From positions 1 to 25,801 of the IMG/VR virus record IMGVR_UViG_3300047666_000220: a stretch of DNA of 25,801 bases; one strand, written 5' to 3'. How positions within the stretch are numbered: position 1 is the stretch's first letter; each line of letters begins with the position of its first letter. This stretch comes from a virus. The notes beneath the pieces are model-generated. The model saw only the letters and a program-made list of their open reading frames with translations, searched no databases and was not told the DNA's origin. Below, one piece after another: positions 708 to 12,128 of the stretch. Position numbers and translations under genes: made by a program.

Positions 708-880
708 GGGATACTTCAAGAGACGAATCATATGACGACTTTGAAAAGAAAGCGCGCTATTACGGGCCTAACGGCGCAATCATGCACACTTCAACGGAGA
801 AATCAGCATTTAACGCTGGATGGAAGGCGGCACTTGAGGCGGTAGACCGTGCTGGTACAAAAGAAAAGAAAGCGCCGTGA
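704..880 (+). CDS. Small hypothetical phage protein, 58 aa
   Basis: The GTG start overlaps the methyltransferase stop (GTGA), and the stop overlaps the next GTG start in the same way, so the three genes are translationally linked. The product is hydrophilic and charged. It contains YDDFEKKARYYG, AFNAGWKAALEAVD and a basic tail ending KEKKAP. The AFNAGWKAALE helix resembles short segments seen in many small phage proteins, but I do not recognise a family. There is no membrane segment and no cysteine. The tight coupling on both sides is the main support for it being real. Its position suggests a role in DNA metabolism or recombination, which is only inference. Confidence 0.65.
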   Translation: MRDTSRDESYDDFEKKARYYGPNGAIMHTSTEKSAFNAGWKAALEAVDRAGTKEKKAP

Positions 881-1305
881 TAAAATCAGCCGTGACGCCC
901 CAACAAGCGGGGCGCTTGGCGGAATGGGTGGAGGGCCTGCCGGTGCCTTTCACCCTGACGTTCAAGGAAGGCAAGGTGCGCACGCTTGACCAAAACGCAT
1001 TGCTGCACAAATGGTTTGGAGAAATTGCCAAGCAAAAAGGCGACAGGACCGCCATGCAGGTCAAGGGCGAGTGTCATAACGAATACGCGCTGGCGATCAA
1101 GATGCGTGACCCCCAATGGGCTTGGGTGTGGGTTAGAACCGGCGCGATATTGGACTATGAGCAGCAATGCAGGGCGCTAACGTCTGGCGTGTTCTACGTG
1201 TCGAGCGGCATGTCAGTGCCAGAATTATCGGAATACATGGAGGCAATGAGCCAAGCATATCGAAGCAAAGGCTTTAGATTGACAGACCCGGAGGGTAACA
1301 GATGA
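877..1305 (+). CDS. ninB: NinB-like recombination protein
   Basis: The product is 142 aa, the usual size for NinB (the lambda Orf family), a recombination mediator that binds single-stranded DNA and SSB and can substitute for host RecFOR functions. The recognisable core is around residues 33-72: KVRTLDQNALLHKWFGEIA, then QKGDRTAMQVKGECHNEY. This matches the NinB pattern of an R-x-x-x-QN motif, a WF/WY pair, an IA-x-Q helix and a VK-x-xC stretch. The start is a GTG that overlaps the previous stop, and the stop overlaps the next ATG (ATGA). The next gene is a YbcO-like nuclease, the kind of partner found in lambda-type Nin regions, which supports the assignment. No biochemical inference beyond the family is possible here. 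Confidence 0.8.
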   Translation: MIKSAVTPQQAGRLAEWVEGLPVPFTLTFKEGKVRTLDQNALLHKWFGEIAKQKGDRTAMQVKGECHNEYALAIKMRDPQWAWVWVRTGAILDYEQQCRALTSGVFYVSSGMSVPELSEYMEAMSQAYRSKGFRLTDPEGNR

Positions 1306-3627: not shown

Positions 3628-3680
3628 CTTTGTTGGTAAGTGGTCTGCGTATTATTTTCAGAACGCGGACCACGACAAAG
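3628..3680 (+). ncRNA. Long stem-loop in the 3595-3988 non-coding region
   Basis: GTGGTCTGCGT (3640-3650) pairs with ACGCGGACCAC (3663-3673): eleven pairs with one G-U, around a 12-base loop. A second stem pairs CTTTGT (3628-3633) with ACAAAG (3675-3680) below an asymmetric internal loop. No T run follows, so a classical terminator is not clear. Further on, GTGGTGTATACCAC (about 3757-3770) makes a small hairpin. The 394-base stretch has no convincing ORF. It may end the accessory transcript or be part of a structured RNA leading to the tRNA-like element at 3836. Confidence 0.45.
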
Positions 3681-3835
3681 ATGTTAGGGCGACCGCGAAA
3701 CGCGCAATAGCGTGAATTATGTTACCTTTGCGTGAAGATTGTTTCTAAGCCGCATTGATGTGGTGTATACCACGGTGAAACCCCGTGCGCGGGCTTCTAC
3801 AAGCAAGGCCAACCCGCAGTATGCACCTCATGAGC

Positions 3836-3929
3836 GCGGCGGTGGCTGAGAGGTTTAAGGCATTTCGACGGAAAGCGTTTGGCAGCTAGTCTATGCTGGA
3901 CGCCGTGGGTTCAAATCCCACTCTCTGCG
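3836..3929 (+). tRNA. Serine-type tRNA-like element with an abnormal anticodon arm
   Basis: The T-arm is perfect: GTGGG (3905-3909), loop TTCAAAT, CCCAC (3917-3921). The D-arm GCTGAGAGGTTTAAGGC (3845-3861) after TG is typical of tRNA-Ser/Leu. Acceptor strands GCGGCGG (3836-3842) and TCTCTGC (3922-3928) pair with two wobbles and one mismatch. Base 3929 is G, the usual tRNA-Ser discriminator; CCA is not encoded. A long variable arm can form (GCGTT 3875-3879 with GACGC 3899-3903, plus inner CAGC/GCTG). This leaves only TTTCGACGGAAA for the anticodon arm, too short for a 5-bp stem and 7-base loop. I see no clean anticodon. It is either a decayed tRNA or a non-decoding tRNA-like RNA. Confidence 0.5.
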
Positions 3930-3988
3930 TTCAACCTATTCTAAGCATCTAAACCCCAAGGGGACAGACAACACACAAAGGAAACACC

Positions 3989-4177
3989 ATGACCAAATTC
4001 CAACGTATATTTGCAATACTCACTGCCCTTGTGGTCTGCTTCCTTGCGGTCGTAATTGTGGTGGGGTTGACTTATGGGGCTGTCGCTGTGAGCGTTTTGC
4101 TAATAGGTACAACTTTTACCATTGTGGTGTTTGGCCTTGTCGACTTTGTGTCCGCGCTTCTTTCCGACCAAATTTAA
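3989..4177 (+). CDS. Small two-helix membrane protein, 62 aa
   Basis: The ATG follows the RBS leader CAAAGGAAACACC. The product is nearly all hydrophobic after a short basic N-terminus (MTKFQR). Two membrane helices can be drawn, about residues 7-31 (IFAILTALVVCFLAVVIVV onward) and 33-57, with a short acidic/polar tail LLSDQI. Size and topology would fit a holin-like or superinfection-related inner-membrane protein. No endolysin is seen next to it, so a holin call is not justified. The same RBS leader precedes the next two genes at 4205 and 4498, placing the three in one transcript after the non-coding region. Confidence 0.6.
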   Translation: MTKFQRIFAILTALVVCFLAVVIVVGLTYGAVAVSVLLIGTTFTIVVFGLVDFVSALLSDQI

Positions 4178-4204
4178 CGCTATAGACAACACAAAGGAAA
4201 CATC

Positions 4205-4501
4205 ATGACCGACGCACCGACAGCAACCGGAACAGATGCCAAGATGGACCGGATCGAAGAACTTGAGGCACGCAACGGCGAACTAGGGAAGGCCGTGGCC
4301 TACGCGACACAGAAGTTTACCTGCCAAGAAGCAAGGATTGAAGAACTTTATGCGCAAGCTATAAATTTTCGAGAAAGCATTCGTAAGGCCGCGTTGGACT
4401 CTGAGCATGGGCATGAAATTCTAGACTTGTGCTGGGATTCATATTTCCCTGAAATGCCGGTTGCGGGGGTTCACCGCTTCGTCCTAAAGGAAACACCATG
4501 A
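4205..4501 (+). CDS. Hypothetical coiled-coil protein, 98 aa
   Basis: The start is preceded by CAAAGGAAACATC, nearly the same leader as at 3989. Residues about 13-55 form a probable coiled coil (MDRIEELEARNGELGKAV, later EARIEELYAQAINFRESI). The C-terminus is less regular and contains a CWDSYFPEMP segment. There are no catalytic motifs. Similar short proteins with an MTDAP start and a heptad region occur in many phages as uncharacterised accessory proteins. The stop overlaps the next ATG (ATGA at 4498-4501). Role unknown. Confidence 0.6.
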   Translation: MTDAPTATGTDAKMDRIEELEARNGELGKAVAYATQKFTCQEARIEELYAQAINFRESIRKAALDSEHGHEILDLCWDSYFPEMPVAGVHRFVLKETP

Positions 4502-5446: not shown

Positions 5447-6754
5447 ATGGCGCGTGACCTACGCATCCCAACAGCAGCGGTGTTTGAGCCATTGCTACAC
5501 CCTGCACGCTATAAAGGCGCGTGGGGTGGTCGTGGGTCTGGCAAGTCGCATTTCTTCGCGGGGCTAGCTATCGAAGACGCACTGCGGTTCAAGGGCGAAC
5601 ACGGCATGGGTCTGCGTATGGTTTGCCTACGTGAGACACAGAAGTCTCTAAAGTTCTCAGCCAAGAGCCTGATTGAAAAGAAGCTGCAAGACTTTGGCTT
5701 GGGCGAGGCGCAGGGCTTTAAGGTCTACCGTGAGCAGATAGAGCTTCCTGGCGACGGCGTGATGATTTTTAACGGCCTGCAGGACCACACGTCGGACTCG
5801 GTAAAAAGTCTTGATGATTTCCACAGAGCATGGATTGAGGAAGCCCAAGCGGTTTCTGACGGGTCGTTGACATTGTTGCGCCCAACGATCCGCGCCGAGG
5901 GGTCTGAGATATGGGCAAGCTGGAACCCGTCATTGCCCACTGATGCCATTGACATGATGTTGCGCAGTGACAAGACGCCCAAGGGGTCCGTTGTTGTCCG
6001 CGCTAACTGGTCCGACAATCCTTGGTTGCCACGCACGCTTGAGGACGAACGCAGGGACGTCATGGCGTCGTCACCGGAGCGTTACGGGCATATCTATGAG
6101 GGCGAATATCAGAGCGTCACCGAGGGCGCATACTTCGCCAGCCGCTTGACTGAGGCGCAACTAAGCGGACGCATCGGCAACGTGTACCGCGACCCGCTGA
6201 TGAAAATCTACGCTATCTGGGACATCGGCAGCACTTCCAACGCGGCAGACGCCACATCAATCTGGATTGTGCAGTTTATAGGCGATGAAATCCGCGTGCT
6301 GAATTACTATGAGGCAATCGGCCAAGCGTTCGATGACCACGTTCATTGGCTGCGGTCCAACGGATATGAGGACGCGGTGTGTATCCTGCCCCATGACGGA
6401 CGCAAGCACGACTTTGTCCACACCATCACACCACAGGGCTTTCTAGGCAAGGCAGGGTTTACCACTGACGTTGTGACCAATCAGGGCAAGGGCGCTGCAT
6501 TGCTGCGGATTGATGCGGTGCGGGCTATGTTGCCTCGGTGTCGGTTTAATGAGGACACGACAGAAAGCGGGCGCTTGGCCTTGGGCGCGTATCGCCAGAA
6601 AATTGACGATGTGCGGGGCGTGGGCTTGGGTCCGGTGCATGATTGGGCATCACACGGGGCTGATGCGTTTGGCTTGGTTGCTGTCTATGCAGAGCGGGCG
6701 AACACGGCCAACAAGCGCAAGCCGCTGCGCAGGAACCTCAAGGGGGTTGTTTAA
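5447..6754 (+). CDS. terL: Terminase large subunit (packaging ATPase/nuclease)
   Basis: This motor pumps DNA into the prohead through the portal and cuts it. The 435-aa length is normal. The N-terminal ATPase domain shows Walker A GGRGSGKS (residues 27-34), a Walker B-type RAWIEEAQ with E131/E132, and the coupling motif ASWNP (157-161). The C-terminal RNase H-like nuclease shows AIWDIG (D259), LPHDGRKHD (D317) and a final HDWASHGADAF (D399, D406). This layout fits the Terminase_3 (PBSX/SPP1-type) family. The ATG follows the preceding stop with no gap. The portal gene is almost 15 kb away rather than adjacent, which is unusual. Confidence 0.95.
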   Translation: MARDLRIPTAAVFEPLLHPARYKGAWGGRGSGKSHFFAGLAIEDALRFKGEHGMGLRMVCLRETQKSLKFSAKSLIEKKLQDFGLGEAQGFKVYREQIELPGDGVMIFNGLQDHTSDSVKSLDDFHRAWIEEAQAVSDGSLTLLRPTIRAEGSEIWASWNPSLPTDAIDMMLRSDKTPKGSVVVRANWSDNPWLPRTLEDERRDVMASSPERYGHIYEGEYQSVTEGAYFASRLTEAQLSGRIGNVYRDPLMKIYAIWDIGSTSNAADATSIWIVQFIGDEIRVLNYYEAIGQAFDDHVHWLRSNGYEDAVCILPHDGRKHDFVHTITPQGFLGKAGFTTDVVTNQGKGAALLRIDAVRAMLPRCRFNEDTTESGRLALGAYRQKIDDVRGVGLGPVHDWASHGADAFGLVAVYAERANTANKRKPLRRNLKGVV

Positions 6755-11695: not shown

Positions 11696-12046
11696 ATGGA
11701 CCTAATTTTAGCCATAGCATTTACCCAGCACTTGGGCCTTGATGGGGACTACAATTCAGTCCACCCACACCTTAAACTACAGACTGACAGCGGATTTGTT
11801 GCGGGCCTCTACCTTAACAGCAACAGCAACATATCTGCTTATGGTGCTTATCGCTTTGAGTACGAGAATGCATTCTTGGAAGTTGGCGGGGTCACTGGTT
11901 ACTTTTCAAAACCTATCACTCCCTACTTGAGTGCAGGACTTGAGGTTGATGAAGGCGTGGTGTTGTTTGTGTCCCCCGCACTTGGTCGGAACGATAACGG
12001 CAACATGGAATTAGGGGTGGTTATTGGTGTGGAGTACCAGTTTTGA
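11696..12046 (+). CDS. Small beta-barrel-like protein, 116 aa
   Basis: The start has an excellent RBS (GGAAAGGAGAACCA). Alternating polar/hydrophobic strands run through the product: SGFVAGLYLNSNSNISAYGA, YRFEYENAFLEVGGVTGYF, PITPYLSAGLEVDE and MELGVVIGVEYQF, ending in Phe as outer-membrane barrels often do. Phages with T7-like tails carry similar short proteins of unknown function. No clear signal peptide is present (MDLILAIAFTQHLG is short and weak), so export is doubtful. It lies between the S74 fibre and two other possible receptor-binding proteins, so a fibre-associated role is possible. Confidence 0.6.
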   Translation: MDLILAIAFTQHLGLDGDYNSVHPHLKLQTDSGFVAGLYLNSNSNISAYGAYRFEYENAFLEVGGVTGYFSKPITPYLSAGLEVDEGVVLFVSPALGRNDNGNMELGVVIGVEYQF

Positions 12047-12128
12047 GGCAAAAACGCCTAAACCGACGCAATAAAGAATTGATAATCTGCCGCGATTGTT
12101 GCATTGTTCTATAAAATAGGGGGCCGAC

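Follow-up and report, generated by a model that had tools for sequence, protein, structure and literature searches.

We find that the serine-type tRNA-like feature of viral record IMGVR_UViG_3300047666_000220 (the 25,801-nucleotide stretch analyzed here, hereafter the window) is probably the second arm of a conserved two-armed phage RNA of about 186 nucleotides, encoded on the + strand. Judged against Rfam 15 and the open-access literature, this two-armed RNA is previously undescribed. Our search of that literature returned no description of such an RNA, and at the Rfam gathering score the element was unmatched in the window and in 11 relatives. Permissive Rfam scans gave only sub-threshold matches, short or to a tRNA-like T-arm, for the window element, and no match for the elements of eight relatives.

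The whole element, core and both arms, spans positions 3749 to 3934 (+ strand, as are all features below unless stated), follows a core pattern common to about 45 elements, and scores 35.3 bits against covariance model R1. By comparison among relatives, its fixed core consists of a hairpin (P0), an arm-1 helix (P1), and an arm-2 helix (P2). The left core GCCGCATTGATGTGGT (3749 to 3764) forms P0 (GCCGC/GTGGT) or, in a pairing that we call state A, joins the middle core. It is followed by arm 1, an exchangeable module (3765 to 3822) of the same family as arm 1 of contig L040, and by the middle core GCACCTCATGAGCGCG (3823 to 3838), whose partner is either the left core (state A) or, through P2, the right core (state B). 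The arm 2 module (3839 to 3924) is the tRNA-Ser–like body and is matched by model R2. The right core CTGCGTTCAA (3925 to 3934) supplies the 3′ strand of P2 and of an extended acceptor helix. A conserved spacer, CCTATTCTAAGC (3935 to 3946), lies beyond it; this spacer follows single copies of the element and separates tandem ones.

In the window, the element sits between replication/recombination genes and terminase genes. Using the large terminase (5447 to 6751) as a query, we obtained 18 related phage contigs. Syntenic comparison showed phages whose terminases are 91 to 97% identical, yet whose arms are replaced around the fixed core. Most relatives with the syntenic region lack the tRNA-like sequence and have three short blocks in common, GCCGC[AT]TTGATGTGGT, ACACCTCATGAGCGCG, and CGCGYTCAA, separated by unrelated sequence. 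Because unrelated arms replace the tRNA-like arm in close relatives, the conserved unit is a scaffold with an exchangeable arm. Two close relatives (L009 and L010) have no element at the locus.

Pattern scans found about 45 core-bearing elements on about 35 viral contigs, the window counted, and these are lower bounds because the scans used exact patterns and because R1 misses the diverged cores of contig L153 and Sulfitobacter phage pCB2047-A. Elements range from about 140 to 220 nucleotides and lie just upstream of terminase genes even in phages that have diverged to 29 to 32% terminase identity. They are always on the coding strand, usually 35 to 60 nucleotides ahead of a start codon, and occur as tandem copies in four contigs (L023, L028, L033, and L087). 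Cultured phages have them too. The isolate Octadecabacter Antarctic DB virus 2 (OANV2) carries an unannotated element; a term search of the OANV2 paper found non-coding RNA unmentioned (PMC9239159). Phage pCB2047-A has the same core at 11847 to 12060 (− strand), unannotated, in the intergenic space ahead of its terminase genes, and pCB2047-C and NYA-2014a have an identical element sequence. Directly upstream of the pCB2047-A element is a further, partial copy, GAGCGCGG...CCCCGCGTTTTC.

For bacterial genomes, our scans cover the main core form and its close variants. The core pattern gave 16 scattered matches that we judged to be chance, model R1 gave four marginal matches in 296 genomes, and a looser core pattern gave none in 395. 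Two contigs (L081 and L082) retrieved with a pattern of middle core plus D-arm lack the core and look like chance matches.

Several further features were noted around the locus. Promoter and terminator scans of the region gave two weak matches of each kind; an upstream GCGTGAA..TTGTT motif recurs, and is not established as a promoter. A hairpin, GTGGTCTGCGT...ACGCGGACCAC (window 3640 to 3674), kept in most relatives, lies directly upstream of the element locus, and a repeated leader-like piece, ACAACACAAAGGAAACA(C/T)CATGAC, precedes successive genes (window 3948 to 3990 and 4180 to 4206). Contig L097 has an abiF RNA (RF03085, 39.9 bits; 3903 to 3939) about 220 nucleotides downstream of its two-armed element.

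The core helices are maintained by compensatory change. In an alignment of 35 trimmed sequences (A1), 90.6% of the cells in P1 and P2 are paired. Double changes in these helices number 55, against 17 in shuffled alignments, and the covariation score is 0.230, against 0.097 in shuffles. Shuffle controls inflate significance for related sequences; the slide control, which preserves relatedness, drops pairing to 53% or less in every slid register of P1 and P2. P0 is paired in 99.4% of cells. The ratio of G.U to A.C combinations is 35:2 in P1 and P2 and 32:1 in the alternative left:middle pairing, and folding of the sense strand is on average 5.9 kcal/mol more favorable than that of the antisense strand (29 of 37 elements, P = 9 × 10−6). 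This excess of G.U over A.C and the better folding of the sense strand point to an RNA of the + strand.

As a pairing possibility, the two-state core is well supported. Left and middle strands are complementary in 197 of 198 cells (sequences with an insertion set aside), and two elements (L080 and L132a) carry one additional G in the middle core that the left and the right strand each offset with additional bases. Under constrained folding, the two states mostly fall within about 5 kcal/mol of each other. For the window RNA, state A, in which the acceptor helix is open, is favored by 6.0 kcal/mol with tertiary terms excluded, and the minimum free energy is only mildly better than that of shuffles (z = −1.74). 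Because the middle strand is complementary to both neighbors, the core may be a two-state RNA, and we infer that it might actually switch. A P0-type hairpin, AAACCGCTTTCTGGCGGGTT, also occurs in contig L154 (661 to 690 and 950 to 975) in a terminator-like form after tRNA-like sequence, which suggests that P0 may derive from a terminator.

Arm 2 of the window retains most of a tRNA-Ser. On exactly positions 3836 to 3929, Infernal matched the Rfam tRNA model (RF00005) with 28.9 bits, just under the gathering cut-off of 29 (E = 6.2 × 10−6, computed for the 25.8-kb record). By comparison, type-II-length tRNAs (81 to 91 bases) from four alphaproteobacterial genomes mostly score about 51 to 63 bits. 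ARAGORN found no tRNA at the feature. The D-arm GCTGAGAGGTTTAAGGC (3845 to 3861) has a 3–base pair stem and G18G19, the long variable arm (3875 to 3903) has 10 base pairs and a nine-base loop, and the T-arm is GTGGG-TTCAAAT-CCCAC (3905 to 3921). Like a type-II tRNA-Ser, the sequence carries the expected bases at U8, A14, G15, C48, G18, G19, and the T-loop positions, and G at the discriminator position 73 (3929). A sequence-only reading had proposed a serine-type tRNA body without a readable anticodon, in which 12 bases remain for the anticodon arm, and this description is borne out. Those bases form only the stub TTTC-GACG-GAAA (3863 to 3874; four base pairs, four-base loop). A normal anticodon arm, which that reading had named as evidence against itself, is absent: When all hairpins were enumerated, no arm of five base pairs and a seven-base loop with U33 appeared in any register.

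The ends of the feature differ from those of a tRNA. The acceptor GCGGCGG/TCTCTGC forms six of seven pairs, with two G.U pairs and one C × U mismatch, and it extends outward by five further pairs (TGAGC.../...GTTCA), the first of them C-1:G73. Across TGAGCGCGGCGG and TCTCTGCGTTCA there are 12 stacked positions, 11 of them paired and one mismatched. A tRNA-Ser has an unpaired G73 followed by CCA; here, G73 is paired, the acceptor lies within a longer helix, and CCA is not encoded. Because the acceptor is continuous with the core helix and G73 is paired, ordinary serylation is doubtful. By comparison, the window's arm 2 descends from a type-II (serine-like) tRNA whose acceptor has been fused to P2 and whose anticodon arm has shrunk to the GACG-capped stub.

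The same arm is found in other phages. A pattern of T-arm plus right core retrieved 17 contigs, most of them with ordinary tRNAs or unrelated sequence, and two (L153 and L154), from distant phages, with the same arm. Identities are 81% between the window and L153, 73% between the window and L154, and 78% between L153 and L154. The stub loop GACG is invariant in all three, its stem covaries (UUUC/GAAA to UUCC/GGAA), the first pair of the D-stem changes from G-C to A-U in L153, variable-arm pairs 7 and 10 are compensated, and acceptor pairs show compensatory changes. Covarying homologues, which the sequence-only reading had proposed as a check, are thus present. Past position 73, the helix extends by five pairs in the window and in L153, and by four pairs in L154. 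Model R2 gives 110 bits for the window (3830 to 3933), 115 for L153, and 104 for L154, and at most 24.8 for everything else tested, ordinary tRNA-Ser included; since R2 was built from these three members, only the gap to nonmembers is informative. The match's E-value, together with two homologues of the same anatomy, excludes a chance match. The anticodon-less anatomy, defined here by three sequences only, is kept in at least three phages and is under structural constraint.

Both homologous arms sit on a diverged form of the core, ACCGCUUUCUGGCGGG, with a fully covarying P1 and a long left:middle helix that has the same three single-mismatch positions. R1 gives 14.0 bits for L154 (E = 0.1 to 0.23, a rough value, as are all E-values from models built here) and leaves L153 unmatched. 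Because R1 hardly recognizes the diverged core, we assigned it by helix-by-helix comparison. For the exonuclease gene of L153, the best matches are in Sulfitobacter phages.

Across 61 genomes from the family to which a Shimia MAG belongs (taken as Rhodobacteraceae), we looked for a close tRNA-Ser ancestor and obtained partial matches only, mostly T-arm–sized. A close-match search of annotated phages gave mostly T-arm–sized matches to ordinary tRNAs, and an Erythrobacter phage match proved to be an ordinary tRNA-Ser(CGA). No exact match to a 24-base D-arm piece was found. Agrobacterium phage OLIVR1 (L161; MT234338) has a tRNA-Ser–like RNA at 263 to 364 (34.5 bits to RF00005) that overlaps the annotated gp75. 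It has a long variable arm; no regular anticodon arm was found, and no two-armed core was noticed around it.

Arms reassort freely on the fixed core. Similarity clustering divided 45 elements into 35 arm-1 families and 30 arm-2 families, and the seven arm-1 families represented at least twice are each combined with more than one arm 2. Arm 1 of the window is 96% identical to that of L040 over 57 nucleotides, with G-C replaced by A-U in its closing stem, a compensated change, and L040 joins it to a different arm 2, common to L023 and L025. One module even serves as arm 1 in L012 and as arm 2 in L047 (82.5% identity over 40 nucleotides). We rejected a CRISPR array, with its uniform unstructured spacers: The arms differ in length, and bases at one end of an arm covary with those at the other.

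A shared T-loop motif is not a general feature of the arms (6 of 90, against 1.3 expected). Sequences related to tRNAs recur at the locus. Contigs L060 (from 5124) and L132 (4669, − strand) combine the same core with another, distinct tRNA-like arm 2 (GCCGATGGTTCGGTGTCGGAGTAA...CAGGGTTCGATTCCCGTCYGCG), and a sequence at a contig end (L008, 1 to 40) looks like this module. The arm 2 of L087 (2859, − strand) has the T-arm–like hairpins GTGGG-TTCAATT-CCCAC and GACG-TTCAATT-CGTC. Genes for tRNA-Asn(GTT) are joined to or interrupt cores in L050 (181 to 254), L059 (2455 to 2528, − strand), and L061 (2136 to 2209). In L004, ARAGORN places a tRNA-Ser(TGA) at 4328 to 4414, immediately ahead of a core copy; the tRNA family model does not confirm this tRNA. 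Given the tRNA-like arms and the true tRNA-Asn genes beside cores, the locus repeatedly takes up tRNA pieces. They were probably captured through recombination, because these phages carry NinB/Orf-type mediators (window 877 to 1302) and OANV2 carries a single-strand annealing protein.

We propose that the RNA would act in trans, with its arms as interchangeable recognition heads. The tRNA-like arm could present an elbow, a long variable arm, and an acceptor helix to a host tRNA-binding factor without decoding; candidates are seryl-tRNA synthetase (SerRS), RNase P, or a defense toxin that acts on the tRNA body. If the core switches between its pairings, the acceptor helix could be hidden in one and exposed in the other. 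With no anticodon present, an anticodon nuclease is an unlikely target; factors that recognize the elbow, the variable arm, or the acceptor, such as SerRS, RNase P, and acceptor-modifying toxins, would fit better. That the arms are heads for host takeover or counter-defense is the weakest step of this proposal, and we hold it to be doubtful.

The main rival remains a cis-acting leader, attenuator- or riboswitch-like, that uses the two-state core to control downstream genes. It ranks first among the rivals because the element always stands ahead of genes and in sense with them; the short distance to the start codon, the proximity to terminase genes, and a middle strand that pairs with either neighbor also speak for it. 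However, the immediately downstream gene varies among phages, elements stand in tandem, arms are freely replaced, and we saw neither a conserved ligand pocket nor a terminator switch. We regard a leader as unlikely.

Less probable again is the stand-alone RNA that the sequence-only reading had envisaged, bearing an added CCA and a serine and serving as a nondecoding seryl-RNA or a decoy; RNase P and RNase Z would cut it free. SerRS reads the variable arm and acceptor, not the anticodon, and the window and its homologues alike preserve the elbow bases, the long variable arm, and G73. Nevertheless, the proposed 94-base RNA is arm 2 of a larger one: Its acceptor helix passes position 73, with G73 paired to C-1, CCA is unencoded, the acceptor has a C × U mismatch, and relatives keep the core rather than the tRNA-like arm. 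A role in serylation or as nuclease bait is possible only after processing.

An element acting as DNA (a packaging or cos site, a recombination site, or a replication hairpin) would suit a palindromic core near terminase genes and the shuffling of modules, but is very improbable given the strand-asymmetric G.U:A.C ratio, the better folding of the sense strand, the several copies in one phage, and the close relatives without an element. Decay of a phage tRNA-Ser gene, also raised from the sequence, is slightly less credible still. Carriage and loss of tRNAs are common among phages, relatives have real tRNA-Asn genes at the same locus, and the tRNA score falls just under the cut-off; against this, two homologues at 73 to 81% identity share the stub with its invariant GACG and have compensated changes in the D-stem, stub, variable arm, and acceptor. 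A packaging RNA comparable to that of phi29, likewise a phage RNA encoded near packaging genes, is equally hard to credit: Position and a conserved RNA fold agree, but phi29 packaging RNA is required and has one conserved form per phage, whereas the two-armed RNA has hypervariable arms that are unrelated among phages with nearly identical terminases, occurs in multiple and tandem copies, and is dispensable in some relatives (L009 and L010).

Other RNAs partly resemble the trans-acting, two-armed RNA that we favor. Bacterial Y RNAs (YrlA) carry a tRNA-like module. Like YrlA, the tRNA-like domain of tmRNA, plant-virus tRNA-like structures, and mascRNA place a tRNA-like domain with an unusable anticodon on another RNA; theirs is one fixed domain on a different host RNA, whereas here it is one of many arms. 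The two-armed core is unmatched by any Rfam family, tmRNA included. GOLLD and ROOL are likewise structured RNAs that phages and prophages encode, often close to tRNA genes. They are very large and of a single architecture, in contrast to about 140 to 220 nucleotides with replaceable arms and no Rfam match here. The structures of GOLLD and ROOL have been described (PMC12286853).

Taken together, we tentatively propose a new class of phage RNA, in which a two-state core would carry two independently exchangeable heads, drawn from a large pool shared by phages of marine Alphaproteobacteria and directed against host factors or defenses; one head here would be a tRNA-Ser that was captured, lost its anticodon, and turned into an elbow mimic. 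Domain swapping is known for phage proteins, and an RNA here appears to behave likewise. A fixed scaffold on which dozens of unrelated plug-in arms reassort is a pattern typical of arms-race molecules, and swappable arms allow a direct question, namely which host factor each arm meets. The anticodon-less tRNA-Ser arm offers a recognizable origin and a short list of partners. With matching cores in cultured phages (OANV2, pCB2047-A, and the two relatives of the latter), this question is open to the bench.
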